The notes under the pieces: model-generated
Database searches by the model: none
Told to the model about the DNA's origin: nothing
Seen by the model: only the letters and a program-made list of their open reading frames with translations
Origin: Sordariomycetes sp. S80-01Y
Lineage: Eukaryota; Ascomycota; Sordariomycetes
Direction: 5' to 3'
Length of the DNA stretch: 64,000 nt
Assembly: GCA_037042185.1 (NCBI GenBank)
Contig: JAXQJY010000027.1
Span: 2,108,001 to 2,172,000, forward strand
Made by a program: the position numbers and the translations under genes
In this document: positions 37,138 to 64,000 of the stretch, one piece after another
Numbering within the stretch: position 1 is the first letter of the stretch
Layout: every line of letters begins with the position of its first letter

Positions 37138-37241
37138 GCCAAAGGAGTTGGCGATTTGTTGTCATAACATATAGCAATGTAGTATCTTTTCAGCGCCATC
37201 TACACACATCTTTCTACAGTGCCTGAAGCCCAACACCAAAA

Positions 37242-39106
37242 CTAATATACGTAGCGGAAACTCAAGTTCTCCTTGTCAGTGAGATCCTCGAAAGCTCGGG
37301 AGACATCGTCAACATTGGCCTCAACAACACCATTGGCGGCCATTTCATCCTTCTTCTTGTTCTGGCGCTTGAGGTGGAAGCGAAGGAAAAGGATGGCACC
37401 GACGAGGGCGACGTAGCAGCCCAGATGGGTGGAGAAAGCAATGAAATAGCGAGGAGCATCCCAGCCGAGGAAGACTTGGGGCCCTGCAATCCTTTGGTTA
37501 CCGATTGTTCAAGATGGCCAGCATTGGTGTACTTACCGATGGCGTTGCCGGCGGCCCATATGATGAAGTTGGAAGCGACGACAACAGTCTTCTTGGTTTG
37601 ACCAGCAATGTTCCGCGAGACCAAAGAGAGATTGAGTGTCTGCGCAGACCAGAATGATAGAGTGATGTAGTAACAGATCAGCAGACCGACCTTGCGGGGG
37701 AAGTTGCTCGGTTCGATAGTCATAAGCAGTGCTGTCCCGATGAAAGACGGGATACAGTAGGCCAGCATGACCAGAAGGTTCTGGTTGGTTTTCTTGACGA
37801 GCCATGCTGAAGACAGCAGCACGATCAAGATGTAGAAACCGAGAACCATGGCTAGCAGCTGGGTCTCCAGGACACTGAAGCCAAAGCTGCTGATGATGAT
37901 GTTGGCAAAGGCACCAAGGCCAGAGGTCGGAAGGGTGGTTGTCAGAGCGATGACTCCGTAGCCCCAGGTCTGAGGGTCCTTGAGACCTTCAACGACTTGA
38001 TACATCTTGAAGGTCTTGTTTTGAACACCAGTCTGATTCTTCTTCACCCGAACCATCTGAAAGTAGGGTTAGAACTGACTTTTCGCGAATGTGGGCAGTT
38101 GGGCACTCACCATATCGCGCTTCTCGTCTTCGGTGAAACACTTGGCCCTCATGGGAGAGTCGGGCATGTACCAGAAGACAAAGATACCGAAGATGACGGA
38201 GGCAATGGCGTAGCTTAGGAAGAGCCACTGCCAGGAAGCAAGGGGACCGTATTTGATGAGCGAGAAGCAGTATGCCAACAGACCTCCGACAATCTGCTGC
38301 ATGCCGTTCATCATGTACCAGTAGGTGACGGCAGAAGCCTGCTCCTCACGCTTGTACCACATTGCCGAGAGGACGACAAAGGCGGGTTGGCACGCGGACT
38401 CGAAGATACCAAGCAGGGTGCGAACAACGACCAGGCCAGTGAAGTTCTTGCAAGCAGCGTGGCACCCCAAGCAGACACCCCAGGCCACGATTCTGGGATA
38501 TGTTAGGGCATCCGGAAGAAGGAGATGTCGGGTTACATACGAGAAGCTGAGGTACTTGGCAATGGGGACGCGAGCGATGATGTAGTTTTGAGGGTATTCG
38601 ACGACGAGAATCGCTGCACGACGGGGTTAGGCGTGGTCTAAACTGCAACCTGCGAAAGGGACATACCGAGGTAAATACACGTAGTGAGCCATGGGAACTA
38701 TACCTCATGTCAGCTTATCCGCAATGAACTTCCTTAGCATTTCGCATACCTTGGCATTGGGGCTTCCATCCTCATTGGCGAGGCCGGTATCGTCAAGCAG
38801 GCCCATGATGGAGGCAAAAGACAACGTCCCCTTATCGATGGCCTGCAGGAAGTAGGTGAAGATCATGATGGACAGGACCCGCTTGTCAATCTTCTTCTTG
38901 AGCAGCGCATCACGTTCAGGACTGAGCTCAGCCCTGTCATCATGGGCGTATTGAGCAACCTCCTTATCGATCTTGTCCGAGACGTGCTGTGCCTGCTTCT
39001 CGTAGTCGATGGAGTCTCGCTGAGCATCACCCTCGAGCTGGTTCTTGCCGCCCAGCTGGTTCGCCGGAGCGACAGTCTCGGGATCACCAACGTCGATTGA
39101 AGCCAT
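37242..39106 (-). CDS. MFS permease of the allantoate/Dal5 (anion:cation symporter) family
   Basis: Six exons (38750-39106, 38667-38697, 38541-38613, 38111-38492, 37537-38056, 37242-37483), phases consistent, 534 aa. A charged N-terminus of about 70 residues leads to KKIDKRVLSIMIFTYFLQAI, the usual start of Dal5/TNA1-type carriers. The short exons encode FPWLTTCIYLAILVVEYPQN, with the family's YPQN motif split over three exons, and RTLLGIFESACQPAF is the conserved fourth helix region. Twelve membrane helices are likely. Relatives import allantoate, nicotinate, biotin precursors or other organic anions by proton symport at the plasma membrane. It is convergent with ACC deaminase and divergent from the GH105 gene, so either an amino-acid-like or a uronate-type substrate is plausible. 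Confidence 0.9.
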
Positions 39107-45244: not shown

Positions 45245-48200
45245 GGCGATTCTCGGGGGGTTGAAGAGTTGATTGGTGCTGGAGTCGAGGAAGTCTGATG
45301 TAGTTTATGAACAACAGGTGACTTGGACGCCTGTATGGGTATCGAGCAAGTAGATATGGAGACGCAATGTACAGGGAGGGTATCACACTCGAGCGAGTTA
45401 AGGAAGAAGGACAGACGAGTGAACCATGTGTCGGGGTAAGGTGGGAGACAGGTTTATATGATACGGGGGCGACTGAACACACCACTCCACGGGGTTAATC
45501 TGAAAGTTGGGGAGGGCAATCGGGGGCACCAAGCGCCAAGCGGAGAAGACGTGCGTCAGTTGCCCTGGATGGAGGCCGCGAGCGATGACACGATGATTGA
45601 AAATCGCATATGTCGATCTCTGGGGCTCCCAGCAAGCGTTAGCTCCAGGATTGGTCTCACCCGCACTGGCGGAAAGACCTGAGGGCCGAGATAGCTTAGC
45701 CCGCTGATGCTCATCTCCATCTGGGCGAACGGGACGTCTCAGTCGGGGCTAAGTGGGAATCGTGCTTCCCCGCGGAGAGGAAGATGCCGTTTTCCGGGGG
45801 GTAAATTGAAACCGCTGGCCCGGTTGAATCAGGTGAGGACGCACAGTAAGATGAGGAGAGCGTCGAGTTGTGAGGCTCATTTGCTCGAGCGTGCCGATGC
45901 CGATTCCGATGCGGCGCAGGGTCTCGAGACGAAAGGGCCCTTCAAGTCAAGGGCCTGGGCGATGAGATGGGGCCTCGGGAGAAAGGACAGCGTTAGCTTG
46001 CATTGCAATGCAATGGCTCCAGTTCGTCCAGACTTGGGCTGTGCGTTAGCTGACCAGGTCGTCCAAGCACACATCTGGCACACATCTGGCTCGCGTGTCA
46101 TAACTCGGGGCTCGTTAATCTTGCAAACTGCCACCCTCGCGATCGTGTCTCGTTCTACGTGAGTGTGTGGTGTGTGTGTTGACGCTGGACAGGGGCGCCT
46201 GAGACGTCGCATTATGACGCCATGCCTAGACCAGTCGACACGCGCTCGCGGTGGTGTCGGGGGGCTCACAGGAGGTCAGCAGCGGTGATGGAGGGTACGG
46301 AGTAGGGAGGGCGGAGGGTGCACATCGGTGGGACGCGATCTGTGCGCTTGGCCCAGTTGGGGCTTGTCCAGGGGTGTTGTATGGAGTCGCATGTTGATGA
46401 TTGATGCATGCAGAGCAGAAGCGGACGCAGAGGCAGAAGCAAAGGCAGGAGTCAATGGAGGCTCAGCGGAGCTCTGGTGGACCCGGGCCCGGTTCCCTGT
46501 GGGGTTCGACCAGTAGTGGCGGCTCTCCGTTTCGGCAGTCACCACGCCCGGAAAGAGCGGCCTCTGCGAGCTGCAAAAGTCCATTGTCTGCCCTGAAGAT
46601 GGTACGAGGAATTAATTAACAAATGGCGCTATGTCTAATGCCTCTAATGACGGATTCGGTGTACGCCTCCGAGGTGCCGTCTCCTCCCCCAGCGCCTGCC
46701 ATGTCATGTCATGTCACGCCGAACCTGCTCGCAAAACCGCCAGTGACTGTGCTTCTCAGCCACTGGCCAGAACCATTTGATCAACTATCAGAAAAGCGTC
46801 AGCCCAGCCCAGCCGCTGCTGCAAAATCGCCGATGCTGCTCATCTCACCTTTCCTGATTCTTCTTCAGGCTCGCCAGTTTCTGGGGCTGGACAGCGAAGA
46901 GGGTTGCAGGATCGTCGCTGGTCGAGGTCCTCCTGTCCACATTTACGTCACACATGATAGCTCTTCTCCAATTTCATCATCACTTTCCATTCCATCATCA
47001 TCATCATCCACTGCTCGCTCAAGGCACGACTGCTCAACCACGCATATCCCCTCCACTTCCCACCATCCCCAACATTAACTCGCAACTCCAGTCTTTAAGC
47101 TTGACTGTTAAGCTTCTCCGCAGGGTTTGCTCAAGCTTTGCAAACTCTGTCGCATCACTATTAAGGACGCGTGCATTGCGCAGTGGAGTTGGTCAATGGG
47201 GAGTGGCGCCATTACGAGCATCTGAGAGGCGACCAGAGCCCTGGCCGAGTACGCGCCGTCTCGCGCGCTCTGATCCTGTTTCTCGTTGGCGTCGATTCTC
47301 GACTGAGCCCTTCTCCACGTCTGTCGGGCTAACCTGTGTGCTTGTCTCGGTCGAACGGGCTTGTGCCTGGAGATGTCCGTCACTCCGCCGGCACACCGAG
47401 ACTCCGTGTTCCGCGCTGCCGAGCCACTCACCGGCCAATCCAACCACGTGCCCGTGACAAGGCCAAGTCGGACGTGATGACCATTTCATTTACAAAATAA
47501 TTGTATACATTGACCCCGTTGCCCACTTCTTCCCCGTAAATCTCACGTTTCGCCCTGACCTCTGCACCGGTTCCGAGGTCTAGGGCATGTCCTGGGTCGT
47601 CGTGCATGGAAGTCTGAAATGATGAGAAACCCAAGTTCAACCCCCGAGACATTTGCTCCTTGGCGACAAAGCGTAGCGTACGGAGCAGGCTTGTGTTGAA
47701 ATCAGTTATAACCCCGAGATGCTCCCTGTTTGCGGCTGCGTTGTTGGGGTCAACGGAGCTTGGGACGTACCTTCATTTTGGAAGCACGGATCCGAAGCCA
47801 CTCGTCCTATTATTTACAACGTCGATCAGCCATCACATGGTCACGTCGCAACTTACTCGTGTGACGGTGCAGGGATTCTGGGATCGAAATTTGGATGTCC
47901 TGTTGAAAGGCATGAAGCGTTGAGAGTCCTTCGCCATGGTTTTCATTGAAGACGGTGAGCTTGCTTTCTTGGAATCGTTAAATAACGATGTGTATTTCCC
48001 CTGAAGGCAGCTCAAAATTGGCCAAGTTGTAACCAAGAGAATCTCCATCTTACTCAGATAGATACCGGAATTAGGGTACATTGAGGAATGCTGGTGGGTT
48101 CAAGCTCAGATCAAGTCTTGGCTGCTTGATAACCCAGATCACAGCTGTGAAACCACTAATTTCAGTCGAACGAGGTTTACTCCGCGTGAAATCGCTTAGC

Positions 48201-49929
48201 TTTTTCAGAATTGAAGTCTGTATACAGTATTCCGGTATGGTTCACGGTAAACACAGACTTAAGAAGCTAATGTACAGTGAAATTGGGAGACCGAGCCATC
48301 GAGATGAGTATCTATTGCCTCGCCTGGGCGACCAGCGTCATGAATAGCAGAGATGCCCTTGCTTCAAGACCACGCGTTGTCACATGGCCTCCTCTTTCTG
48401 TGTTCTATGAAATTTCAAGGGCAACTCTCTTCCTCGGACTTGTACACTACCGAGGCTTCAAGTGCTCCGCTAGGAGGCGGTGCCTCATAAACTATCGAGA
48501 TTCAGGCTTTGCTGTGGATTGGAGGACTGATTGACAAGCTCACATGGTAAGTGCGTATAATAATAGCGTCTCGGTGGGACTTGGTGGGACTTTTAGCAGT
48601 GGGCCGCGCGAGGTACGCGCGAGAGAAGAGTTCGTGATCCTTTTCCCCGTCTTCGGGCATGCGTGAAGCTTGCGCGAACGCCCCGCATTGAGATATTTAA
48701 ACGCTTGAAAATGACAGGAATTGAAAGTTTATTTAGAAATCTCCACTTGGTATGGTTATTGACTGCAACTAAGAGAATTGGGCGTTGCTCGTTGGTAGGC
48801 ACACTCCCCAGTACCGCGACCACTACGGGGTGCACGACGTTGAGGCTTGGCCTACGAGAATTGTTGAGCATGCAAAGAACTTCCACTGGAAAGATAGCTC
48901 CTGCAATATCATACCTTCGGAGATACTCTTTCCATACCAATAGAGGCCCAGCCCTTCCGGCCAAGCGTGGAGAATATGTGAATCTGTGAGCCATCAAGGG
49001 TCGTTCTCCCTTTGAAGCGAGAGAACATCGCAAGGGTCGATTCGAGACATTTTAGGTAATCCGGAAGTGCTGTCCTCGGCTACTCTGAAAATTTCCCCCT
49101 TTTATCCGCTTGTTGAAGCTTGGAGCTTCTCTTGGGTCGTTGACAGGTCAGCCTACACCCTCAAAAGTGTTTTGACAGGGCGTTTCTAAATCCAATATTG
49201 TGGCACGTTCAACTTGCATCAGTAGTTATTCAGCGGTGATATGTTGTCTTGGAATCAACGGGGTCTGATACTACATCAATCCACCGTGGTAAGTATCTCT
49301 AAGGCTGGGCAATCCTCACATGTAGCTGGAAGTTGCTGCAGATTGGACAAAAGATGGCCACGTGTATATTGACGGCGGTATATCACCGTGAGGTTAATTT
49401 GCAAGACGTTAAGACTTTCGTTCACGGGAGCTGAGGTATTTCACTATTGATGACCAACGAGCGAAAATTGGTTCCCGATCAAACAAAATCATGTGCCCAT
49501 CATGGGGGACTTACTGGCCGTAGTTACCGAAAAGCCTCCAATACTTGTCCATAGAATCATTCCACATACTCAGATAATCCGTCTTGCTGAGTGCATTTAA
49601 CTTCTCATATTTCAGCATTCTCACCGCTCTGAAAAGATGCCTGGCTCGGACGCGGAGCCTTTAGAAGAGGAGAGGTGCCGGGTATGTAGCCACTGGCTCT
49701 CAAGCTCTCGTAGCAGGCCGCCTGATTTTATGGGGAGGAACAACCATCCAGGCGACTCCAATCACCCCGACCAATGATTTCCCCAGACCCCGCATCGAGC
49801 CTAGGAGGCAACCTCGCGGCCCAACTTCACATTGCCGTGATCGAGAAGATCACTCTTGTTTTGTGCACCAATCACCAAACCCTCTACACTATCTCTTGCT
49901 CCCCAATCGGCTCTTCGCTCCGGAACCTA
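45245..49929. other. Gene-poor stretch before the aromatic-catabolism cluster
   Basis: 4.7 kb with no gene I can support. The left part is GC-rich with short repeats (GCAGAAG-like words near 46406-46450, ATC triplets near 46976-47010). The right part, about 47.5-49.9 kb, is visibly richer in A and T, with many stops in all frames. I found no transposase, reverse transcriptase or terminal repeats, so a decayed element is possible but not shown. Confidence 0.45.
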
Positions 49930-52170
49930 ATGACCAGCCAATTGGGTTCATCGAATGTGCGCAAGCGTCGTTCCTACATAGCGGTTGCGTGGTGCGTTTG
50001 CTCATAGCGCCCGTGCCACCCCCAACGGGTTTGCAACTAGATGAGATCAATGGGCTGATTACCGCAGCGAAAGATGCCAGAGACGCAAGATCAAATGCAG
50101 CGGCGGTCAGCCATGTGAGCGTTGTCGAGACAGCGACTTGACGTGCGCATATCCAAGGGCGACGCGCTTCCGGACAGGGCGTACCGGTTCGTAAGTCTCT
50201 GGGAACTACTCAATTGCGGCACGCAGTCCACATAGATCGAAAACTGATCGAGTCCACCCAGGACAGAGTCTAATCCATGCACCGCTAGTGCCGCCACAAG
50301 AGACGCGGCAGCGTCACGACCGAGGGTTGAGGAGAGCACCAGCACTCGCACTCGGCTGTCAAACGCTCAAGACGCCATCAACCAACAAAGAACTCCGAGC
50401 TCGCCAATACCAGGGAGCTTCGACTATTACGTACGACTTGCTGAGTCCCGAATCACCGCCAATAGCCCCGAGCAGACACTCAGGCCAGAAACTAATCACG
50501 GGCCGACTCTGGCTAGAACGCAGCAGCTACGAGAAGTCATTGCTCGCCGCAGCGGTGACAAGTCTGATGGCTGTGTGCTCGAGCTGCTCGAGATGGATTC
50601 TTGGGCAGAAATACTTCATACATATGACGAGGAAATTGGAATGCAGTACCCTTTTCTCGACATTGGAGTAACCATAGAGCGGATCCAAGCCGCAAGAGCC
50701 AACAAGTCCCAAGATGACCGGCGCATCGAAGACGTTGCTTGTCTCATGATTGGTCTTGTGTCATGTTTGGCTTTATCAAGTGCGGTCGAGGCCGCCAGCC
50801 CTCTCGTTCATGAAATATTCAGTGCTGCTATCGTTCGCGTGCATACCGACGATGTCGACAAAGACGACCTTCACTTGTTGATTTTGGCATGTATGTTTTT
50901 CTTCCTCAGCGACCGAGAGATTCAAGCCTGGAGATGCATAGGGACTGTTATGCGCTTGCTGCATGAGCTGTGCCACCGCGACTCTCAGAGCGGAATCGTG
51001 TCCGGCACTTTGTACTGGACTGTATACACACTCGACCGTCGATGGAGTTTTGGTACAGGGCTGCCGTTTGCAGTATCCGATGCCGAGATCATGAGCACGC
51101 GACAGCCAGCACTCCCGGACACACAAAACCTATCGACAGCATACCTCAAACAAATGGTAGCTTATAGCGAGATTGCATCCGACGTACGCAGAACCTTGCT
51201 AGATCAGCGACCAGAGTCAGCCCCCCACAAGAGCCCCGACGCAGTGCGCGATTTCGCCGATTATCGGCTCATCCAGTGGCAGAAAAACCTTCCTAGGAAG
51301 CTCCGTTTCCGTGGTGCGGACGACAAGTATGATCCTGCTACAGAGTCGCGTGGCGAATACAAGCTTCGCTTGATGTTGTATCTCCGAGCCAACCAGATGC
51401 GAACCATCATCCTACGAAAGTCGGCCACAGTGTCTGCGTCCTTGAATCCTGTCAGCATCGACGACGCCTCGAGCACGCAAACAATACTGGAAATTGCGCA
51501 GGACACAATTCGCGTGCTGGTATATCTGGGCAAGGAGACTGATATTTATCATGCTCAGCATCGCACGTTCAACCATTTCTTGGAGACTGCTCTGTCATTC
51601 TTGCTACTCGTCGTTTGCTGCGTTGGTCCCAGCGGTAGCGCTCCCGCCTGTCTGAGCGACGTCGTGGCGGCTATGGACTTGATCCGCCAGCTCTCGCAGA
51701 AGTCGGGCATAACACTAAAACTTCACGAGAAACTCAAAGTCATTCGAGAGACTGTGGATAGACTGAAACCGCCAAATTCCGACTCCCAACTCACTGAGCC
51801 ACCAACAGAGACGGGGCAACCAGGAGAAGGCAGTACAGTACCACCACGACCAGGTGTGTCGACCGCTGCGCTACCAGAATGGCCGTCAGATATCGATCTG
51901 GATGCGCAGAATCAGCATGGATTCGCAAACCCTCCAGCACCGGCGTGGGATCCGACGTTCGGACCAAATCCCAATCAAAACAGCGATATGACACTGGCCA
52001 ACGTGCCGTCAAACGAGTTTATAAGCCCTTACGATATCTCGTCTGATCCGGGCCCGACTGTGGGCGGTGAGGCCATGTCTACAGGATGGCATATGTCGGC
52101 TGACTTTGACGGACCACGCTTTCGTGAGCTCAATGATATCTTGATGGATTACGAGAACTTTTCATTTTAA
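49930..52170 (+). CDS. Zn2Cys6 transcription factor adjoining the aromatic-catabolism genes
   Basis: Three exons, 49930-49991, 50068-50190 and 50289-52170, both introns phase 2, 688 aa. The DNA-binding cluster is built from two exons: VRKRRSYIAVAC, whose Cys codon is split by intron 1, and ERCQRRKIKCSGGQPCERC, then RDSDLTCAYP, giving the Cx2Cx6Cx6Cx2Cx6C pattern of the family. The large third exon has the fungal transcription factor middle-homology helices (WRCIGTVMRLLHELCHRDSQ, the TLYWTVYTLDRRWSFGTGLP block that is diagnostic). The acidic, Pro-rich C-terminus may activate transcription. The start is the ATG nearest the cluster; an in-frame ATG at 49774 would add 52 residues. It lies tail to tail with the nitrilase and is the natural candidate regulator of the genes that follow. 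Confidence 0.85.
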
Positions 52171-52229
52171 GGTTGTATCAATCTGGAAAAGAACAGAAAA
52201 TAAGAATATAGCGTAAGCGGGCTGCCACG

Positions 52230-53248
52230 CTACTCCATTTTGACGAACTGCACCCGCTCAGGTGTCTCCTCAGTGACCCGCAGACCCAGGAGATCCGGGC
52301 GCGAGTAGTGTCCCACGACATCGAGACTCTGCTGGGCCATGGTACGGAAATCCAGGTCAATGTCCGCATACAATATTCCTTCCTCGCCAGAGCCTAGGGA
52401 CTCAACAAGTGGCGATCCGTCCGGTCCGTAGATCATGCTGAAGCCCCCTCCTGGGGTTCTCGCGTAATCAAACTCAGCCAGACGAGTCTTCTTCTTGCCT
52501 TCCTCGGTAAGAATGGCCGAGCAAACGAGAACGAAGCACGCGCCCTCCATGGCCATAACCTGGGAGAAGCGGTTGCATGCCGGTGGCGTGAGGTGATATG
52601 GCCAAGGCTGCCCAGGGAGAGGGTCCCAGCACAGCGGCCAACTGGCGACCTGAATGTCGAGATTCTGGGAGTATTGGTAGTATCGCAACAGGGGCTGAGT
52701 GTGCTCCCAGCAGCAGAGACCGCCAATGTTGCCCCAGCTAGAAGGTGTCACGGCCTTTAGTGCGTCTGCCTGACCGTCACCCCAGTAAGCCCTCTCAACC
52801 GAGGTGGGCTTGATCTTGCGGCGATGGAGGACAATGGTGCCTGTCTCGTCGATAAAGGACTGCGCGATGTACAGAGAGCCCCTGTACCTCTCGCTGTAGC
52901 CTAGTACAACAAACACCCCGGCCTCACGCACGGCTTCTTGGATCCTTCCCATCTCCTCACTTTCCTTCTGAAGCGAATTATGAAAGTACTCGTTCATGAA
53001 GCCAGCGTTGCTGACCGTGGAGTTTGCCCAAATGGTCCTAATTCAAGTTCAGCCACCCGCGAAAACGTATCACAGCTAGATGGGGAAGATCACCATGGGT
53101 ACCCAGGAATAAAAGTCTCAGGAAACCCAACAACATTAGCACCGTTCGAGCTGGCTTCCTTGATCAGGGATATGGTCTTGTTAACACCGCCTTGAAGGTC
53201 GTTCCACACGGGCTCAGCCTGAATGGCAGCAACTTTGACCTGAGGCAT
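52230..53248 (-). CDS. Nitrilase (arylacetonitrilase-like, CN-hydrolase superfamily)
   Basis: Two exons, 53094-53248 and 52230-53037, phase 2 intron of 56 bp, 320 aa. The catalytic triad is in place: Glu44 in [12 protein letters not shown], Lys in [12 protein letters not shown] (residues 126/128), and Cys161 in [16 protein letters not shown]. The CWEHxQPLL context is that of true nitrilases, not amidases. The intron falls inside the Trp codon after GYP. The enzyme should convert nitriles to carboxylic acids and ammonia; filamentous-fungal members often prefer arylaceto- or aromatic nitriles. Its place between a Zn2Cys6 factor and homogentisate dioxygenase suggests a phenylacetonitrile-type substrate, which is inference. 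It is cytosolic and may form helical filaments as relatives do. Confidence 0.92.
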
Positions 53249-53726
53249 GACGGTGAGGAGGAATCAGGCGCTTGAGTGAAAGTAGTTCTTTGGCTCCAAC
53301 GAATCCGGCAGTGGAATCTTGTCGCTTTATATGTCCAACATAGATGCCCTATAGCGTTCTTTTTGACGGAATTTACGGAGGTCAGCTTAATTTGGAATCA
53401 TGGTTGCACGAAGTACGCAGAGCGCCAAAGTGAGAAGGATCCTATTGGCCTGTCGGGTTCAGGGATTCCGCTCTCCCCTCTCATTTATGAGTGCGGTAAG
53501 AATCAGGCTCAAGTCTTACATGTGGAGAAGATGACAGCTCTTGGGTCCTATTACAGTCGTCTCTTTTTGCCTACACAAGCTGTAATCTGTGCATTTAGTC
53601 AAGTGTGAGTGGTATGAGTAGGCGTGGATCTGACCGTGGCACGTCTCATTTGCGACTACATATTATGAATGCCACCTACGGAATTGTTGAGCATATGCTT
53701 CTAGATATAGCGACGGTAATATTCTA
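53249..53726. other. Upstream region of the nitrilase gene
   Basis: 478 bp between the nitrilase start and the 3' end of the homogentisate dioxygenase gene. It holds one CGGAATC heptamer at 53464-53470 on the minus strand, pointing toward the nitrilase. No gene seen. Confidence 0.45.
53464..53470 (-). promoter_or_regulatory. CGGAATC heptamer upstream of the nitrilase
   Basis: One copy of the heptamer that is repeated in the HGD/P450 and FAH promoters, 216 bp before the nitrilase ATG and in the orientation of the gene. A single 7-mer may be chance. Confidence 0.3.
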
Positions 53727-55144
53727 TTATTGAACTGGGGCGTCTTTCGGAGGGCAGAAATTCCTCTTGAGGCTGCCCCAACTATGTTCATTGTACAGTT
53801 CTTGAACCTTCTGGCACGTTTTCTTGGACCATTCAGTAACTCCAATCATCAAAGAGCTCTCAAACATGAATGCCATACTTCCGGCACCGATCTTTTGAGG
53901 CGACAGCTCAGCGTTCGACGCCCTATCAAAAGTCCCCGCATCCGGGCCATGTGCACCCATGATGTTATGCAAAGACGCTCCACCTGGCTGGAAACCCCCC
54001 TTCCCACCAGCCTTGGCATCGTAGTCCCCCGAAATCAAGCCCATAAATTCGGACATCGTGTTACGGTGATACCATGGGGGGCGAAAGGTGTTCTCAGCAG
54101 TGAGCCAACGGGGCGGGAAGATCACAAAGTCGGCAATAGCTGTGCCTACCACCGGAGATGGAGCCGTAAGGACGGTGAAGATGCTGGGATCCGGGTGATC
54201 ATAGCTGATGCTTCCGATGGTATTGAAGCGCCCAAGATCGTACTTGTAGGGATAGTAGTTTCCGTGCCAGGCAACGACGTCAAACGGGCTGTGGTCCTGC
54301 TGGGAGTCGAACAGCTGGCCAGCAAACTTGGCGCGGATCGTCCACTGAGACTGGTCGTCTTCATAGTCGGCAACAGGGGCTTGAAAGTCTCTGACGTTGG
54401 CCAGGCAGTTGGATCCGATAGGGCCAAGCTCCGGGAGTTGGAAGTGACCCTGGAAGAGTTCGAGGATGTAACCGCGGGCCTCATTGTCGACCAAGTCAAC
54501 GCGATAGCGTATTCCTCGCGGGACAACGGCGATCTCGTTTGGGCGCACGAGAAGGCGTCCAAGTTCTGTGCGAATATCAAGCGCACCGTGCTGAGCTACA
54601 ATGAGAAAGTCTCCATCGGCAGAGTAAAAGGCCTGATGACGGTCCATATCTTTATCGGCACTGTAGATGTATATCGCAAGACCGGACTTGACGGTAGGGT
54701 CTCCGGCGCCACCGAGCAGGCGGAGACCGCTGATAAAGTTGGCGCCCTTGACAACATCAAACGGATCCCACCGCAGCTGGTTGGGAATCTGAGTATACTG
54801 CTGCTGACCTCGGGGCGAGTGTCCGGATAGCTGTCTTTCGGACAGCTCAAACGGTGTATGCGCAGCAGAGGGCATGATTCGGTACAGCCATGATTGCAAG
54901 TTTTCGCTCCTGGGTGCCGTGAAGGCCGTGCCTGACAGCTTCTCAGCATACAGCCCATAAGGAGCCTTCTGAGGCGAGTTTGCGCCTACAGGAAGGGACC
55001 CAACAACAGCTTCGGATCTATACAGCGGTCAGAATAATGAATCATTAGCCTGACACGTCTTAAGAATTGTATATACTCATGATAGGAACCAAACCCATGC
55101 TGGTAAGAGTATTTCTCCGGTACCTCGAAGTCTGTGCAAGGCAT
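53727..55144 (-). CDS. hmgA: Homogentisate 1,2-dioxygenase
   Basis: Two exons, 55077-55144 and 53727-55017, phase 2 intron of 59 bp, 452 aa, close to the roughly 445-450 aa of fungal enzymes. The start [20 protein letters not shown] is followed by [20 protein letters not shown] and [20 protein letters not shown], a diagnostic HGD block. The iron-site region is intact: [16 protein letters not shown] (His and Glu ligands) and [15 protein letters not shown] (second His). The enzyme opens the homogentisate ring to maleylacetoacetate with O2 and Fe(II) in tyrosine and phenylacetate catabolism. It is divergent from the CYP504-type P450 over a 680-bp promoter that contains the CGG repeat. No maleylacetoacetate isomerase gene lies nearby. 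Confidence 0.95.
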
Positions 55145-55824
55145 GGCTTTTAGTCGTATACACTGCTACGAGATGAGACTGGTGTAAGCGCTTTGAACTA
55201 ATTCAATTAACTTAGGAAGAACGGATGACGGGGTAGATAATAGTCCCGTTTTGTAAGTGCGAACAGGGGCTAAGCAAGGCCAAAGCCGGGCAAGCCAGAT
55301 TCCATACTGAGGTGCTCTTGGGCCGACATGCAACCTCGTTATGTAAGATGATCATATACCGTCGCTCTCGTCATTGGGTTTGCCCCAAGACCTGTCACTA
55401 CACCCTTTGTCGAGATCCCATCCCAGCCTCGACCGTACGTAGCGGAATCGGAATCAGCGGAATCGGACCTGGCGGCTTCGGAATCAAACTGGCCATTGGA
55501 CCTGAAGGCACTCCCTCCACACTCCCTCCGCACTTTCCAGGCCACTATACTCTAGTAAAGCAAATCCAAGCGTCCCGATTCGACCCTCTGTTTGACCCCG
55601 CGCTGTCCAATGTATCATCATACGAGCTTGTGTGCTGCAATGACACCGCACCCCAATGTGGGGTAGCACGGGAGAGTGTGTTAGTGACCGGGAGTCTCTC
55701 ATCAAGACCAGGCGGGTCGGATGGGCTGCGTACATAAGTATGTCTTCCTCATCAGCTAAGTCTTCCCGTTGGACTTATATCTCATCTTTTTCTCCTCATA
55801 CGCTGTCCCTCTCATCACTCCACT
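55145..55824. promoter_or_regulatory. Bidirectional promoter of homogentisate dioxygenase and the CYP504-type P450
   Basis: 680 bp between two divergent genes of one pathway. The centre carries three tandem 15-bp units rich in CGG (separate entry). A pyrimidine-rich tract directly precedes the P450 ATG. Confidence 0.65.
55443..55487 (+). promoter_or_regulatory. Three tandem 15-bp CGG-N3-CGG units, candidate Zn2Cys6 operator
   Basis: CGG triplets stand at 55443, 55449, 55458, 55464, 55473 and 55479, spacing 6-9-6-9-6. This gives three 15-bp units, each a CGGN3CGG direct repeat; the heptamer CGGAATC occurs four times. Zn2Cys6 dimers bind paired CGG half-sites, so the array fits a multi-site operator. 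It lies about 300 bp before the HGD ATG and about 340 bp before the P450 ATG. Confidence 0.6.
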
Positions 55825-57378
55825 ATGCTGTCGACCCAGATCTATGTCGCCATCGCGGCGGCTGTGTTGCTATTCCTCGCTAGATACCTCTACGCCACCG
55901 ATATACCCAAAATTAAGAATCTTCCTGAGATTCCTGGCGTTCCCCTCTTCGGCAATCTCTTTCAACTTGGCACCGATCACGCCAGGGTTGCCCAGAAATG
56001 GGCCAAGAAGTACGGCCCTGTCTTCCAAACGCGGCTAGGAAACAAACGGGTCATCTTTGTCAACTCCTACGAGACAGTCAAGTACTTCTGGATCACGAAC
56101 CAATCGTCTCTCATCTCGCGACCCATGTTTCACACGTTTCACTCTGTCGTTTCGTCCTCGCAGGGGTTCACTATCGGAACCTCACCATGGGACGCATCGT
56201 GTAAGAACCGCCGCAAAGCCGCCGGAACCGCCCTAAATCGTCCTGCTGTCCAATCCTACATGCCAATCCTTGACCTAGAGTCACTCGTGAGCATCAAAGA
56301 GTTGCTGGAAGACAGCGAGCGTGGTGCTAAGGACGTTGATCCGACCCCCCATTTCGCGCGCTTCGCCTTGAACACGTCCTTGACCCTCAACTATGGATAC
56401 CGGATTGATGGAGATGTACAAAGTGAGCTTCTGCAGGAGATCACCCACGTTGAGCGTGAAATTTCCCACTTCCGTTCGACCAGCAACAACTGGCAGGACT
56501 ATGTCCCCCTACTTCGACTCTGGGGCAAGCAGAATACCTCGGCAGAAGAGTATCGGCTGCGTCGTGACAAGTATCTATCAGACTTGCTCACAGGACTCAA
56601 AGAGCGCATCGCCAAAGGCACTGACAAGCCATGCATCACGGGTAACATCCTGAAGGACCCGGAAGCGAAGCTCAATGAAGCCGAAATCAAATCGATCTGC
56701 CTCACCATGGTATCTGCTGGCCTCGACACTGTTCCAGGCAATCTCATCATGGGCATGGCTTTTCTGTCCACAAAGCAAGGCCAAGCCGTTCAAACCAAAG
56801 CTCTTCAGGCTATCGAGGAGGTCTACCCCGATGGCGATGCCTGGGAAAAGTGTCTGGTGGAGGAAAAGGTACCTTACGTCACAGCCCTAGTCAAGGAGAC
56901 CCTGCGCTACTGGACAGTCATTCCGATATGTTTACCTCGGACCTCCATCAAGGATATTACTTGGAATGATGCCGTCTTTCCTGCCGGCACCACATTCTTC
57001 ATGAACGCCTATGCTGCCGACTACGACGAGGCGCGTTTCAAGAACCCCACGCAGTTCGTCCCTGAGCGCTTCATGGACGACAAAGAGGCCGGCACGCCTC
57101 ACTACGGATACGGTGCAGGATCGAGGATGTGTGCAGGTTCGCACCTCGCCAACCGCGAGCTCTTTACGGCTTACATCCGACTCATCACCGCTTTCGAGGT
57201 TCTCCCAGCGCGAGATCCCAAGGATGCACCCATTATGGATGCAATTGAGTGTAACAAGGTTCCTACTTCGTTGACCACGGACCCAAAACCTTTCAAGGTT
57301 GGGCTCCGGGCTAGGAATGAGACGCTTTTGAGGAAGTGGATAGCTGAGGCAGAGGAGAGAACCAAGGAGCTGCGGTGA
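55825..57378 (+). CDS. Cytochrome P450, CYP504 family (phenylacetate hydroxylase type)
   Basis: Single exon, 517 aa. An N-terminal membrane anchor (YVAIAAAVLLFLARYLYA) is followed by TDIPKIKNLPEIPGVPLFGN, typical of CYP504. The I-helix reads MVSAGLDTVPGNLIMG in place of the general AGxDT motif, as in that family. ExxR is in VKETLRYW, and the heme loop is YGYGAGSRMCAGSHLANRE with Cys436. Aspergillus PhacA and PhacB of this family hydroxylate phenylacetate at C2, and 3-hydroxy- or 3,4-dihydroxyphenylacetate at C6, the latter giving homogentisate. Which of the two this is cannot be settled by eye. Its partner genes HGD and FAH act directly downstream in the pathway. It is anchored in the ER membrane and needs a P450 reductase. 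Confidence 0.92.
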   Translation: MLSTQIYVAIAAAVLLFLARYLYATDIPKIKNLPEIPGVPLFGNLFQLGTDHARVAQKWAKKYGPVFQTRLGNKRVIFVNSYETVKYFWITNQSSLISRPMFHTFHSVVSSSQGFTIGTSPWDASCKNRRKAAGTALNRPAVQSYMPILDLESLVSIKELLEDSERGAKDVDPTPHFARFALNTSLTLNYGYRIDGDVQSELLQEITHVEREISHFRSTSNNWQDYVPLLRLWGKQNTSAEEYRLRRDKYLSDLLTGLKERIAKGTDKPCITGNILKDPEAKLNEAEIKSICLTMVSAGLDTVPGNLIMGMAFLSTKQGQAVQTKALQAIEEVYPDGDAWEKCLVEEKVPYVTALVKETLRYWTVIPICLPRTSIKDITWNDAVFPAGTTFFMNAYAADYDEARFKNPTQFVPERFMDDKEAGTPHYGYGAGSRMCAGSHLANRELFTAYIRLITAFEVLPARDPKDAPIMDAIECNKVPTSLTTDPKPFKVGLRARNETLLRKWIAEAEERTKELR

Positions 57379-57758
57379 TAGCATACGATTTGCATCAATG
57401 TGAACTATTTTGAGAACAAGATTAATCTGAACAATCGAATGTATTCGTATCGGGCCATTCACCATTACTCATGCCTTCAGCTTACCAAGGCTGCGCATTG
57501 CCATAGTTAAGCAATAGCTTGGCAATCTGAAACTGATAGCGATCAACAGTAAGCAAAACCCCGTATTGAACAAAGCCCTTCTTGGAACGAACGGCGAGAA
57601 CATCATCGTCCCTAAGTCGGACTGTTTTTGTTGAACGCAGGGACGTTTACTAGTACCGCTAACGGCCTCACTCTCCCTTGATTTAACTGCACCTATCGTA
57701 AGTTGGAGCAAAAGCTTCCGGAAACGCTAAACTCATTTAGCTGCCTGGTATCTGACTG
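57379..57758. other. Convergent intergenic region
   Basis: 3' flanks of the P450 and FAH genes. No gene seen. Confidence 0.45.
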
Positions 57759-59054
57759 TCATATTTCATAACCATTGTCCCAGGCCTCCAGGATAGTCGA
57801 TTGACAGCTTCCAAAACCCACCCTCTCACCATTGGGAAGCTCAGCCCAGCCTCGGATGGTCACTTCGTCCCCGTCCCGCAAGAAGACACGATCGCTACCA
57901 TCGATTGGAATTGGGCTTCTTCCACCATTAGTAAGCTCCAGTAGGCTGCCTTGAGAACCAAGATCGGTTCCGCTGATGGTGCCTGAGCCCAGTAGGTCGC
58001 CGGTGTTCAGATTGCAGCCGCCCAAGGTGTGGTGGGCGATCATTTGAGGGAACGACCACAAGAGATGCTTGGCGTTGGAACGTGTGACAACCGTTGACTC
58101 CTTGGAATCCCGAGCCTTGATTGCGACTTGAAGTTGAATGTCAAAGACGGTCTTGGCAACTTCTTGCTTCAAATATGGCTGGACGGGACTCTCGTTTTTG
58201 ATTCCCTCTGTACGGAAAGACTCCAGGGCATCCGCTAAAACAACCCAAGCGCTAATGCTGCTGGCAAAGTTCTTCGAGTTGAAGGGGCCCAGAGGAACAT
58301 ACTCCCAGGCTTGAATATCACGCGCCGACCAATCATTCAATAGGACGTAGCCAAAGATGTACTCCTCGGCTTCACCAACTCGAATACCCGAAAACTGCTT
58401 GTTGCCTTTGGCAATGAAGGCGCCGAGCTCCAATTCAATGTCAAGCTTCTTGGTAGGGCGCCACGTGGGCTTCCTATTCTCGTCGAGTATCTGACCCCAG
58501 GGACGGCGAACTGGGGTACCAGAAACCGCGACCGAGGATGCACGACCGTGGTAGGCAACGGGTAAATGGGTGTAGTTTGGCTGAAGCGCATTTTCTGGCC
58601 CTCGGAATAGGACGCCCACATTGTAAGCATGGTTCTTGCCGACGTAGAAGTCGGTGTAGTCGCCAATGTGCAGCGGAACATGCATCTGCACCTTATCCAG
58701 ATGGAGTAGGCTGGCGTCGCGTAAGATGTAGTTATCTTGAAGGCAATCAGCCAGAGGTGTGTCTTTGGCCAATACCTTTTGCAGGTATTGGCGAACCTGT
58801 CGGTGCGTAGCGCGACCTAGTGCAGCAAAGTCGTTGAGGGTCTCCCTTTTCACTGCTGCGATGATGGGCTGGTGGTTGGGGAGGCCGTCGAAACCATGAC
58901 CGTCTGCGAAGACCTTGAGATCTAGGGCGTGATTGCCAATTGCAACGGCTACACGAGGCTCGGGAGCATCCTCGTAGCTGATGACGCCGAAAGGGATGTT
59001 GGCAAGGCTGAAACAGTGCCCAGCGGGAATCTCTACCCAGGACAAACCAGTCAT
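57759..59054 (-). CDS. fahA: Fumarylacetoacetase
   Basis: Single exon, 431 aa, the normal size. The metal and catalytic residues known from the mouse enzyme are all present: DYTDFYVGKNHAYNVG (Asp and catalytic His), VLFRGPENALQPNY (Arg), KKLDIELELGAFIA (paired Glu), LLNDWSARDIQAWEYVPLGP (Asp), and FNSKNFASS (Lys). The C-terminal part has HTLGGCNLNTGDLLGSGTIS. It hydrolyses fumarylacetoacetate to fumarate and acetoacetate, the last step of the homogentisate pathway. It is convergent with the P450. Two CGGAATC copies lie about 300 bp upstream, in the direction of the gene. Confidence 0.95.
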   Translation of the reverse strand: MTGLSWVEIPAGHCFSLANIPFGVISYEDAPEPRVAVAIGNHALDLKVFADGHGFDGLPNHQPIIAAVKRETLNDFAALGRATHRQVRQYLQKVLAKDTPLADCLQDNYILRDASLLHLDKVQMHVPLHIGDYTDFYVGKNHAYNVGVLFRGPENALQPNYTHLPVAYHGRASSVAVSGTPVRRPWGQILDENRKPTWRPTKKLDIELELGAFIAKGNKQFSGIRVGEAEEYIFGYVLLNDWSARDIQAWEYVPLGPFNSKNFASSISAWVVLADALESFRTEGIKNESPVQPYLKQEVAKTVFDIQLQVAIKARDSKESTVVTRSNAKHLLWSFPQMIAHHTLGGCNLNTGDLLGSGTISGTDLGSQGSLLELTNGGRSPIPIDGSDRVFLRDGDEVTIRGWAELPNGERVGFGSCQSTILEAWDNGYEI

Positions 59055-59352
59055 TGTGGCAATGTATGGGAAAAGTGATCATGAAGAGAAAACCCGTTCT
59101 TATATCAGTGGATGTTCACTTAGCCGAGTTTCGATGGAGTACAAATCAGGGTACTCTCTCCCGGGTCTAAGGTCCTAATGCCACTTGATAGCGGGACTTG
59201 GAATGACAATGACACTGTTTAAGAGCACGCGATCGCATTCTTCTAGTATGCCGCCACGTCATGATAGTATGCGGTACTGGTTTGATTTAGACAACCATCG
59301 TGCGAGAGTGGATGTGCGCCCAGTATCTATTGCCGAAGCCGTTCGCCAGTTC

Positions 59353-59369
59353 GATTCCGCGCGATTCCG
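59353..59369 (-). promoter_or_regulatory. Two CGGAATC copies upstream of FAH
   Basis: GATTCCG occurs at 59353-59359 and 59363-59369 on the plus strand, that is CGGAATC on the FAH strand, with a 10-bp repeat step (CGG-N7-CGG). The pair lies 299-315 bp before the FAH ATG. The heptamer is the one that is tandemly repeated in the HGD/P450 promoter. Confidence 0.5.
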
Positions 59370-60162
59370 GCCCGAGCCCAACTCCACCACTATGTTGATC
59401 TACGCAGATTAGCCAAAATAAGAAGTACCATTGTTCTTATTGCCATTGATTCTGACTTACGCATTGACATAAATCACCGTACATCAGGGCCGACATGGAC
59501 TACGCTTCCAGCAAGGAAACGATGGCAGCACAGCTAGGGTTAAGACCTGCACGACGCCTAGTACGAGTTGAATCGAAAGCCATCATCAATTAGGTCAGAT
59601 TGTACCTCTCACCTGTAATTCGTAAGGAAAAAAACCAAATGGCATGGCGTCGTGAGGACCTCGGCCAAACCTTCCATAATCGCATGCTTTCGCCCGTCTT
59701 ATCCAGTTTGGGTCTGCACAGCTGCTCTGCTTTGATTTTGCAAGCTAATATATACGTACGGCAACCTATCCAAAGGCGAAAAGAGATCAGCCATCTGCCT
59801 CTTGAGCTGAGTGACGTATAGAACGTCCCGATCCCCGTTATTCAGAAGGCTGATGGTTCGGGCGCCGTCATCTGACAGTCTGTTGCCATTCTGCAATACT
59901 CGTAGGATGCATTTCGCAACACGAGACCTTTGTTGATCCCGAAGAACCAGGCGGCGAAACAGAATTGGATGAGATATCTTGTTAACATTTATCATAAAGA
60001 TGTGCAACCAAAGACCAATATCGGCTCTCAACGGCTTTGGCCACCTCAGAATTGCGGCGCAGGATACTTGCCGCAATTCAACTCTCCAGTCGTCTAAGCC
60101 TCTGGAACTTGTCAAACTTCAGATTTCGGCTGCTCTCGAAGGGGCTACACCGACATATAAGT

Positions 60163-60558
60163 TTATTGCCTGGTAAAATAGTTGGCTCCGCGTTTATTTT
60201 CGTTTCGCCCTGTCAACTTCGCCCAGGTCGTTACCAAGATACTTACAGCCCCTCGGTGGGAGAGCTCACGTAGCAGCAATGACGGTTTCAAAATCGAGCA
60301 TAGTCGAACACCCCTCGAAATCTTGCCATTTCCAATCCAGGTGTTGCGCATAAGCTCCCTCCAAGCCTTCAATTCCACCTCAATGCGTTCTTTGGAGCTT
60401 AGCCCCGTACGTCGCCTGGTGTTGACCGGAGGACGAGGCATCGAGGCCGGTAGAGATTGCGTGGACGCCAACGACGCTGGACTACCGCCGAGACCATCTT
60501 CAGTAAGCAAAGATGTTATTGAGGGCAACACCGAATGTGAGCTGGGAGGCTCCATCAA
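60163..60558 (-). other. Doubtful open frame, possible exon or relic
   Basis: A 131-codon ATG-initiated frame. The middle (RRRTGLSSKERIEVELKAWR) looks more protein-like than the usual shadow frames and has the feel of a short helical DNA-binding or element-encoded segment, but I do not recognise the family. No splice partners or neighbouring element genes were found. It could be a fragment of a decayed gene or chance. Confidence 0.2.
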
Positions 60559-61068
60559 GAGCCCAATTTGCCCCCCTCCCCCCCCCGTGAAGATCTTCGC
60601 CCGCAGCCCCTGTCACTTCCCCAGACTAAAAGCTCTGGATCTCACCGGAAAGGGGCTCCCCACCAATGACAAGGCCGAGGGCGCTCCAGCGATCCGGGCC
60701 TAGCGATTGGACTTCCCGACCAATCTTGACATGCATTAGACCGGCGTACGCGGAGTCCAACCGGTGACCCGCAACGAATGCGCATTGTTCTTGAGTTTTT
60801 AGTTCGAACGCCAAAATGAGACGGAACACGGGCTACGCTTCTGGCTTCCACCAGATCTGTGGCGGCGGATTCGAGCCCATGAGCCTCGAGCTTCTCGTGG
60901 CGTACGCTAGGCGAGTCATTCCCACTCGGTTGTCGCTGAAATGATGCCCAACGCCGTACTAATAACCATACGTTGCTCTCCAGGTTCAGTCGGGCTCTGC
61001 TTTCCAAAGATGTTCTTGATGTCTTTGTTTTCGAGTGCTCTGGCGCCTGATTGCATGCCTTCACCATT

Positions 61069-62528
61069 ATGGCGTCAGATCTTGTCGCGTCGCTGCTGGC
61101 GGCGTCGGTGACGGTCATCGTAGTAACCGCGGTCCTCGTCTTCATGCGCTTGTGGATCCGCTGGCGTCTGGGGAATCTGGGGATGGACGATTGTGAGTTC
61201 TTGGCTCGGCTGTGGGGCACATTTTGGCGTGCAACTAACGACGCGTAGATATGGTGGCTATCAGTTGGACTTTGTTGACAACTATGTGCGTATTGACGAT
61301 TCTTGGTCAGTAAACTTAACTCTTGGTTCATCCAAAATGGCTAATAGTCCACAGCCAGCCAACAAGGTGCACTAGGACAACGTCGAAAGACTGTCAGTGA
61401 CCCGTCGTACGAGGTTTACCTGAGAGTAAGACACAGCCTTATATCAGATCGGCTACGCCTTCTGACCCGACGATAGTACAACGCAGGCATATCGCCCACA
61501 TTCAGTTGGGGCGTTGCTGCCGCCAAGATATCTTTTGCGTTATTGTACATCCGCATCTTGCCCCAGCGCTTCTTAATGATACTCAACAGGCTCCTCATAG
61601 TTTTCTTGATTTGTCAAGCTATAGAGGAGTCACTGATACCGATTCTCAAGTGCAATCCAATCCAGGCATCCTTCAGAGTCGACATCGAGGGCAAGTGCTT
61701 GGACCTGCGGGTAATGTGGTGGTGCACTGTAGGTCATCCAGCCCCTACGGTAGCACTCAACGCTAACAGTAACAGTTCGGCTTCAACATTACTTCCGATC
61801 TCATATTGTTTATTCAGCCGATTCCTTCGGTCTGGCGACTGCAGATGGCGAAAGCGAAGCGTGTCGGCATACTTGCTATGTTGTCGCTCGGCTTACTGTT
61901 AGAGTCACAGCACCCATTCGCAGAATCGAACCTGACCTGAGTATAGTGTTTGTATTATATCGGTAATCAGGATAGTCAGCGTTACGCGCATCCACGAGGA
62001 TGAAACATGTAAGTCTGTGGTGTTCAAGCCCAACTTCGCTAATTAACCTCGCTAGATCGCATTGCGCAAGCCATGATTTGGTCGGAAGTCGAAGTCGCGG
62101 CTTTGTTGATTTGCTCGTGTATTCCGAGCTTGCGGCAAGTCATCTCCAAGATTCCCTGGCTAAGCCAAGCCTTTGGTCTTGCAAGCGGCTGGGCTTCCAG
62201 AGGCCAGTACAATGACCACTCAAAACCAAAGGACGGCTCGATACCCTTGGTTCATCGCCATGAGTACATACCAAGTTCAAGAGTGAATCGACACGGAACA
62301 CACGACTCTCAAAAGTTCGGCACATCGAGTCGAGCCGTCGCAGCCTCAGCAAGCAACAACGACAGCCAAGAAGAGATTTTGCCGCACAAGACAGACGGCA
62401 ACGGAGCGATCCTGGTGACGAAAGAGCTGGCGCGTGACGTCGAGTACGATGCCGCAAGGACAGAATCGTCGACCACTTTATCATTTAACAATGCAGATGG
62501 GATTGAACCTGAATATAGGACACCATAG
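61069..62528 (+). CDS. PTH11-like/rhodopsin-domain seven-helix membrane protein
   Basis: Seven exons: 61069-61192, 61249-61305, 61355-61425, 61477-61710, 61776-61897, 61971-62008 and 62056-62528; all junction phases agree, 372 aa. The seven predicted helices include SVTVIVVTAVLVFMRLW, YMVAISWTLLTTMCVLTI, FSWGVAAAKISFALLYIRIL, FGFNITSDLILFIQPIPSVW, KRVGILAMLSLGLLIVSV and the EVEVAALLICSCIPSLRQVI helix. ISPTFSWGVAAAKISFALLY and LGLLIVSVTRI are typical of the fungal rhodopsin (DUF3328-unrelated, PF20684-type) family, which includes PTH11-like receptors. The tail of about 120 residues is polar and cytosolic. No CFEM domain is present. These proteins are thought to sense surface or chemical cues; its ligand is unknown. 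A true G-protein partner is not shown. Confidence 0.8.
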
Positions 62529-63025
62529 TCCCGGAACATGAGAAAGGTGTATAGGCGTCGGGATGGGGTTTGTGATTTTGGGATATGATACCCCAGCTTT
62601 GAGACGAGCTACTAAAAACGATGATACCACCACCTCCAACGTGCACCACTCCATTTTCATTTTGAGTGGCCGTTCTACTTCAGATGCTGAGTGTCTGTAT
62701 GTTGGTGTCTGAAACCAGTAGGTCCCTTTCGGAACCTAGCTCGTGGACACCTAGAACACTAGACGGCGATTTCGGCCTCTAGATACCTGGAATAGTCGCT
62801 TTCCACAACGCCAAGCTCTTGTAGTCTAGTTTTTAACGGGACATCCAACCAAATACTTCATTTGCTCGGTTCTGGGCGCGGAGCCTTCTCCTCCGCTTTC
62901 CCGAGTCTCCGCACGGCTCGGGTGGGGGTAGCACTGAGGGGGACACTCCGCAACAGCAACTTTACATCTGCATCCCCCATCATATATCCTGCATATACAT
63001 ATACGACCAGGGTTGAATTTGCGAG
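62529..63025. other. Intergenic region before the short-chain dehydrogenase
   Basis: Promoter region of the dehydrogenase gene. No gene seen. Confidence 0.45.
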
Positions 63026-63841
63026 ATGACTATGGACTTTGAAGGCAAAGTCATCGCCATCACCGGCGGCGCCAGTGGCATTGGCCTTGCAACCGCCAAG
63101 ATAGTCTCTGAGCGGGGCGGAACCGTCTGTGTCGCGGACAGAGATCCCGAAGCATTGAGGACAACAGAGGAATTCTTCAAAGCTCAGGGAAAAGGGGAGA
63201 AGTACCAAATTGCGGATGTTGACGTTTCATCCAAGGAATCGGTGGAAAGCTGGATTGGCGGAATTGTAAAACAATTCGGTCGGCTAGATGGGGCAGCCAA
63301 CATCGCTGGAGTTATCGGGCGGAACCATTCCAAGGGATCTATTGCAGACCTCGAAGATGATGAGTGGGACAGGATCATTGCTACAAACCTGACTGGATCT
63401 ATGTACTGCATGCGCGCGGAGCTCAACAATATCGTCGACGGTGGTTCAATTGTGAACATGGCATCGATCCACAGCCTCAAAGGCAAGTCACTTGAGGCAG
63501 GAGACTTATCAGGAGACTGACCTCTCCCAGGAATGGCAGGCCACGGCGCCTATGCTGCAAGCAAGCATGGGCTTTTGGGGCTCACTCGAGCTGCTGCTCA
63601 GGAAGTTGGAGGACGAGAGATCAGAGTCAACGCTGTAGCGCCAGGGTCAATCTATACGCCTATGATGCAAAAGGCATGGGATGCAATAGGGCGACCAAAA
63701 GATGCTCCTTTCGACGAGCCCACCGCGATTCGACGACAGGGTACAGCCGAAGAGGTTGCAAAGGTCGTTGTCTTCCTTCTGGGACCTGAGAGCACCTTTG
63801 TGAGTGGAGCATGCTACTCAGTGGATGGAGCGTGGACTTGA
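63026..63841 (+). CDS. Classical short-chain dehydrogenase/reductase
   Basis: Two exons, 63026-63482 and 63531-63841, 255 aa. The intron is of GC-AG type (AAAG|GCAAGT to CTCCCAG|GA); splicing there restores SLKGMAGHGAYAASKHG across the junction, which holds the catalytic YxxxK. The cofactor loop is ITGGASGIGLATA (TGxxxGxG), with NIAG in place of NNAG, and Ser in SIVNMASIHS. An acidic residue after strand 2 (VADRDPE) suggests NAD(H) preference. C-terminal RVNAVAPGSIYTPM is typical of classical SDRs. The substrate is unknown. Its place beyond the receptor gene leaves membership in the aromatic cluster open. Confidence 0.9.
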
Positions 63842-64000
63842 GCGCATTATGGTCTCTTCCTCCTTTTCGTGTTGTGTTATAAGGCGAAGAAAAGTCTTGA
63901 ACAATCAATCCAGAGACGACTGGGGCCTGTTTCTCAAATTTGAGCTATCTATCTCATTACGTCTTTATTCCAAGAGCAAGTGTGCCCAATGACCTTGAAC

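Follow-up and report, generated by a model that had tools for sequence, protein, structure and literature searches.

Can a fungus hold, in one set of neighbouring genes under one regulator, the means to turn an aromatic nitrile released by plants into intermediates of central metabolism? The question is raised by five consecutive genes in a 64,000-nucleotide stretch of the genome of Sordariomycetes sp. S80-01Y (the window; C10:2108001-2172000 of an assembly of 30,874,049 bases in 16 contigs), which encode, in this order, a Zn2Cys6 regulator (+), a nitrilase (-), a homogentisate 1,2-dioxygenase (HGD, -), a cytochrome P450 (P450, +) and a fumarylacetoacetase (FAH, -). A first-pass annotation made from the sequence alone had proposed that these genes form one module leading from arylacetonitriles to fumarate and acetoacetate. 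Order, coordinates, Pfam families and splice models all agree with the five genes that it listed (Table 1), and the cluster as a unit is better supported than that annotation could show. We consider it fairly probable that the genes make up a dedicated, co-regulated catabolic cluster, which would carry an arylacetonitrile through an arylacetate and homogentisate to fumarate and acetoacetate, with the isomerase borrowed from another locus. Judged from its sequence, the cluster is real, well formed and probably functional, and the pathway claimed for it is to be narrowed, as follows.

Gene identities and active sites

All five genes are intact, and their splice models are open up to the stop codon; the small first exon of the HGD gene is the likeliest among several open splice choices. 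The identity of HGD is borne out by its score of 671 bits against the NCBIfam equivalog hmgA (cut-off 511) and by the alignment of its segments YHRN, SEF and HGPDA with the solved structure 1ey2, and that of FAH by its score of 552 bits against the fumarylacetoacetase equivalog (cut-off 375) and the alignment of its active-site segments with 5ti1. The nitrilase combines a CN-hydrolase domain with the Glu-Lys-Cys triad of the nitrilase superfamily, and the segments that hold the glutamate, the lysine (RRKIKPT) and the cysteine (GLCCWEH) align with the solved relative 6zby. The roles of the residues in these active-site segments of the nitrilase, HGD and FAH are those that we assume from general knowledge. 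In the P450, the ExxR motif (KETLRYW) and the heme-cysteine motif (GAGSRMCAG) can be read directly, so the active-site residues first described as intact are in place in all four enzymes. The HGD and P450 genes are divergent, with 680 bases between their start codons.

Table 1. Genes and upstream elements of the cluster (positions are those of the window)
Feature	Position	Strand	Details
Zn2Cys6 transcription factor, 697 amino acids	49930..52170	+	three exons 49930-49991/50068-50190/50262-52170; Zn_clus 1.1e-8, Fungal_trans 3.9e-6 (Pfam)
Nitrilase, 320 amino acids	52230..53248	-	two exons 53248-53094/53037-52230; CN_hydrolase PF00795 3.3e-30 (Pfam)
Nitrilase upstream region	53249..53726	.	GGAATC x4, CGGAAT x3, including one full CGGAATC
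Homogentisate 1,2-dioxygenase (HGD)	53727..55144	-	two exons 55144-55077/55017-53727; HgmA_N 5.3e-93, HgmA_C 1.2e-72 (Pfam)
HGD/P450 common upstream region	55145..55824	.	GGAATC x5, of which 4 are CGGAATC inside 55443-55485
Cytochrome P450, 517 amino acids	55825..57378	+	single open frame, intronless; p450 9.6e-61 (Pfam)
Fumarylacetoacetase (FAH), 431 amino acids	57759..59054	-	single open frame, intronless; FAA_hydrolase 1.8e-39, FAA_hydrolase_N 1.4e-29 (Pfam)
Paired CGGAATCG motif, FAH upstream	59352..59369	-	pattern count and promoter word count

A word clustered in the promoters of the nitrilase, HGD/P450 and FAH genes

The word GGAATC ranks first among all 6-mers across the nitrilase, HGD/P450 and FAH promoters. 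It occurs five times in the HGD/P450 promoter (0.38 expected, P = 5e-5), four times in the nitrilase promoter (0.28 expected, P = 1.9e-4, for a word that had been prompted by the other promoters) and twice in the FAH promoter (0.37 expected, P = 0.055). None of 3000 non-overlapping random triples drawn outside 49300-59800 reaches its score by either measure, be it with at least two copies in each member or with any spread; when the draws were able to include the cluster, 2 and 5 of 3000 triples reached it, respectively. Blocks of 600 bases with at least four copies are absent both from positions 1-49200 of the window (0 of 82) and from 24 other loci of the same genome (0 of 286), the latter a sample of 177,879 bases made up of blocks, not promoters, in which some loci overlap, three were chosen for holding the paired motif described next and one overlaps the end of the window.

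By eye, repeats of CGGAATCG are common to the HGD/P450 and FAH promoters. The paired pattern CGGAATCG-N(0-20)-CGGAATC occurs six times in 30.9 Mb, three of these occurrences being in the cluster (two overlapping ones in the HGD/P450 promoter and one before FAH), and its reversed control occurs four times in the genome; around the other three sites (one on C9, two on C15) no aromatic-catabolism genes were recognised by eye. Single words are at chance level across the whole window, where CGGAATCS is found 7 times and GCGGAATC 5 times, counts that are reached in 33 and 17 of 100 shuffles, respectively. Likewise, k-mers common to at least three of the four promoters (the regulator's included) do not exceed simulation, with 15 7-mers vs. 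11.4 simulated (reached in 38 of 200 runs) and one 8-mer vs. 0.88 (106 of 200). The promoter signal lies in the clustering inside promoters, not in window-wide word counts.

The nitrilase, HGD/P450 and FAH promoters have in common an element above background, and we read it as a sign of co-regulation that probably takes in the nitrilase; the presence of the word at this gene too argues against chance adjacency. Sites containing CGG fit a Zn2Cys6 factor, and the neighbouring factor would probably drive the set via the CGGAATC elements; its own upstream region contains no GGAATC.

Class and relatives of the nitrilase

Among solved structures, the nitrilase matches best NitA (6zby; 276 bits over residues 3-318), which we take to be the arylacetonitrilase of Pseudomonas fluorescens EBC191; the two differ in the alignment around the cysteine, which reads CCAEH in NitA and CCWEH here. 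Four other nitrilase chains follow (242-249 bits), then cyanide hydratase 9ofa (205 bits), cyanide dihydratases and a cyanide-degrading enzyme (185-186 bits), nitrilase 3wuy (161 bits) and plant NIT4 (112 bits). The enzyme thus appears to be nearer to the arylacetonitrilases than to the cyanide-degrading nitrilases, which is a sequence class drawn from a comparison with no fungal arylacetonitrilase in it. Around five bacterial loci with relatives of the nitrilase (33-43% identity), no homogentisate or phenylacetate genes were recognised by eye, a result that says little, as many frames are wrong in this GC-rich DNA.

Within the genome itself, seven other loci were compared out of 16 matches, the closest being 55% identical to the window nitrilase and the next 31%. 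The closest paralogue (C10:162970-163994), which has a broadly similar ranking against the solved structures, is divergent to an aldoxime dehydratase gene (C10:164994-165923), forming a separate aldoxime-nitrile pair (C10:162970-165923) with Zn_clus or Fungal_trans frames on both sides. The genome has three aldoxime dehydratase genes in all. The two further ones lie at C9:963924-964853 and C13:2567899-2568834 (PF13816, 346 and 298 bits), and inspection by eye recognised no nitrilase near them. Together, the ranking and the paralogue beside an aldoxime dehydratase make arylacetonitriles a sensible substrate class, with none proven. The initial proposal of a nitrilase that feeds arylacetonitriles into the pathway thus holds for its sequence class and stays conditional for its substrate: the enzyme would hydrolyse phenylacetonitrile or a hydroxylated form of it, yielding the corresponding arylacetate and releasing ammonia. 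The link to glucosinolates drawn in the first-pass annotation is conjectural.

The P450 and the proposed route to homogentisate

Three points weigh against the pathway as proposed. The nitrilase promoter holds the exact word CGGAATC just once; the cluster lacks a maleylacetoacetate isomerase gene, the sole clear copy of which in the genome is on C8; and the P450, whose substrate decides the pathway, is not placed as PhacA- or PhacB-like.

We provisionally take the P450 to be of the CYP504 type, from general knowledge and from its place between HGD and FAH. It has no close second copy: 62 candidates were scored in an exon-by-exon search of the genome, 10 pass an E-value of 1e-8, and the other nine of these are 24-35% identical to it. 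According to the published passages available, PhacA is a phenylacetate 2-hydroxylase, whereas PhacB is a 3-hydroxy- and 3,4-dihydroxyphenylacetate 6-hydroxylase (PMC6723986, PMC2657799), a difference that was glossed over in the earlier statement that CYP504 enzymes lead phenylacetate to homogentisate. If the P450 is of the PhacA type, its product would be 2-hydroxyphenylacetate, not homogentisate, and the cluster would need another hydroxylation; if it is of the PhacB type, the natural nitrile would be a hydroxylated one, not benzyl cyanide.

The second case leads to a refinement that is compatible with the proposed pathway and that we regard as possible, though somewhat less likely than not: the substrates would be hydroxylated, a PhacB-like P450 would turn 3-hydroxyphenylacetate into homogentisate, and the nitrilase would supply the former from hydroxyphenylacetonitrile. 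With the activity described for PhacB in those passages, a single P450 step would suffice, leaving no enzyme missing before homogentisate, and the low identity of the other nine P450 matches also favours this refinement. However, the P450 at the matching place in the black-yeast loci discussed below is tabulated as phenylacetate 2-hydroxylase (PMC7417343).

Comparison with known clusters

As far as the published passages go, the homogentisate cluster of Penicillium chrysogenum (Pc12g09010-09040) is induced by phenylacetate (PMC2657799), and in the Aspergillus/Penicillium cluster, like here, HGD and FAH lie beside a putative regulator. However, that cluster holds maleylacetoacetate isomerase, whereas the window cluster has a P450 and a nitrilase instead and the FAH-isomerase pair of this genome lies on another contig, so the present cluster is not of the Aspergillus type. 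A closer counterpart is the FAH-P450-HGD trio in the black yeasts Exophiala dermatitidis and Rhinocladiella mackenziei, in which the isomerase is located elsewhere (PMC7417343, PMC5844311, PMC4059230). Their adjacency is inferred from locus-tag numbers in the published tables, and the same three genes occur with the P450 in the middle, matching the order HGD, P450, FAH in the window. The passages in question mention no nitrilase alongside, and they do not cover the genes flanking these trios.

Accordingly, one may argue that HGD, P450 and FAH form an ordinary (hydroxy)phenylacetate/homogentisate unit, as the consecutive locus tags of the two black yeasts would suggest, and that the nitrilase and the regulator are unrelated neighbours. 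We consider this unlikely: the single full CGGAATC upstream of the nitrilase agrees with it, but the excess of GGAATC in the same region speaks against it, as does a nitrilase of a predicted class that would suit the pathway's input. Still less credible is that the nitrilase serves to detoxify cyanide or aliphatic nitriles, for although it shares a superfamily with cyanide hydratase and matches it with 205 bits, NitA and the four other nitrilase chains all score higher (242-276 bits) and the paralogue beside the aldoxime dehydratase also matches those chains better.

A nitrilase beside catabolic partners, as in the proposed cluster, is also known from its pairing with an aldoxime dehydratase gene, which is described for Fusarium graminearum and Ochroconis mirabilis (PMC4738786) and likewise known from Bacillus sp. 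OxB-1. In contrast to these pairs, no dehydratase gene is present in the window cluster, which couples the nitrilase to ring cleavage. None of the open-licence full texts listed describes a fungal cluster in which a nitrilase gene is linked with HGD, with FAH or with a P450 that hydroxylates phenylacetate, and none joins phenylacetonitrile, nitrilase and homogentisate; as most subscription journals lie outside this set, the absence of such a record is weak evidence. Since the trio already exists in black yeasts, the nitrilase with its regulator is the sole candidate novelty, and the suggestion that the whole arrangement may be undescribed is reduced to the joining of the nitrilase to the trio, of which these texts hold no record.

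Further copies of HGD and FAH, and the isomerase

The HGD and FAH of the cluster are additional to copies elsewhere in the genome. A second HGD (C10:2626445) is 69% identical and scores 646 bits against hmgA, above the cut-off; a third, divergent HGD-like copy (C5:389761-390861) is 51% identical, and its first frame, part of the gene only, scores 381 bits, below the cut-off of 511. A frame resembling FAD-binding monooxygenases lies a few kilobases (kb) from the latter, as does a sugar-type transporter. Further FAH copies are found at C8:124959 (57% identity) and C14:532148 (44%, best piece). The one on C8 adjoins a maleylacetoacetate isomerase gene (C8:126378-127052; maiA 228 bits, cut-off 171), the one clear copy in a genome search that returned one weak match besides (E-value 7.5e-4). 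There is no HGD in the 9.9 kb around this pair, and the surroundings of the additional HGD and FAH copies in the genome showed no second nitrilase-trio arrangement. The region C8:121560-127101 holds an AMP-binding (CoA-ligase-like) gene in addition to the FAH and isomerase genes.

Without an isomerase, the cluster does not alone suffice to break the ring down to fumarate and acetoacetate, which weakens the claim in the first-pass annotation that it is complete to these products; that of one module is strengthened by a word common to several promoters, the nitrilase's among them, and weakened by an isomerase outside the cluster. In the proposed pathway, the P450 would act on the arylacetate from the nitrilase by hydroxylating the ring toward homogentisate, HGD would open the ring, the isomerase step would be borrowed from the gene beside the other FAH on C8, and the FAH of the cluster would split fumarylacetoacetate into fumarate and acetoacetate.

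Neighbouring genes and base composition

Nine neighbouring stretches run against Pfam revealed no extension of the pathway. Three of them have no family, and those found at the others are GPR1/FUN34, GH88, MFS, a pyridoxal phosphate (PLP) enzyme and a short-chain dehydrogenase, with one sub-threshold rhodopsin-domain match. The PLP enzyme (PF00291; window 36271-38626), beside transporter-like frames, presumably resembles 1-aminocyclopropane-1-carboxylate deaminase or D-cysteine desulfhydrase. The GC content in 2-kb steps is 0.49-0.54 in window 48001-64000 vs. 0.53-0.61 over the first 48 kb, and third-position GC is 0.56-0.66 in the five cluster genes vs. 0.66-0.89 in eight other genes of the window. 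We considered a foreign origin of the cluster on its lower third-position GC; this signal is too weak to claim one.

Implications

A wider proposal, which we advance tentatively and at somewhat less than an even chance, is that the cluster may be one regulon of the Zn2Cys6 factor and CGGAATC that takes plant-type arylacetonitriles to central metabolism, with its own duplicate HGD and FAH apart from the tyrosine-pathway copies, and fed by the aldoxime-to-nitrile capacity of the genome. The promoter word provides a handle for locating more members of the set. If the proposal is true, a fungus would have the detoxification of nitriles joined with full catabolism of aromatics in one switchable unit, which would account for the retention of additional HGD and FAH genes in this genome. 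The aromatic nitriles that plants release would then serve, besides being defences, as sources of carbon and, through the use of the ammonia, of nitrogen.
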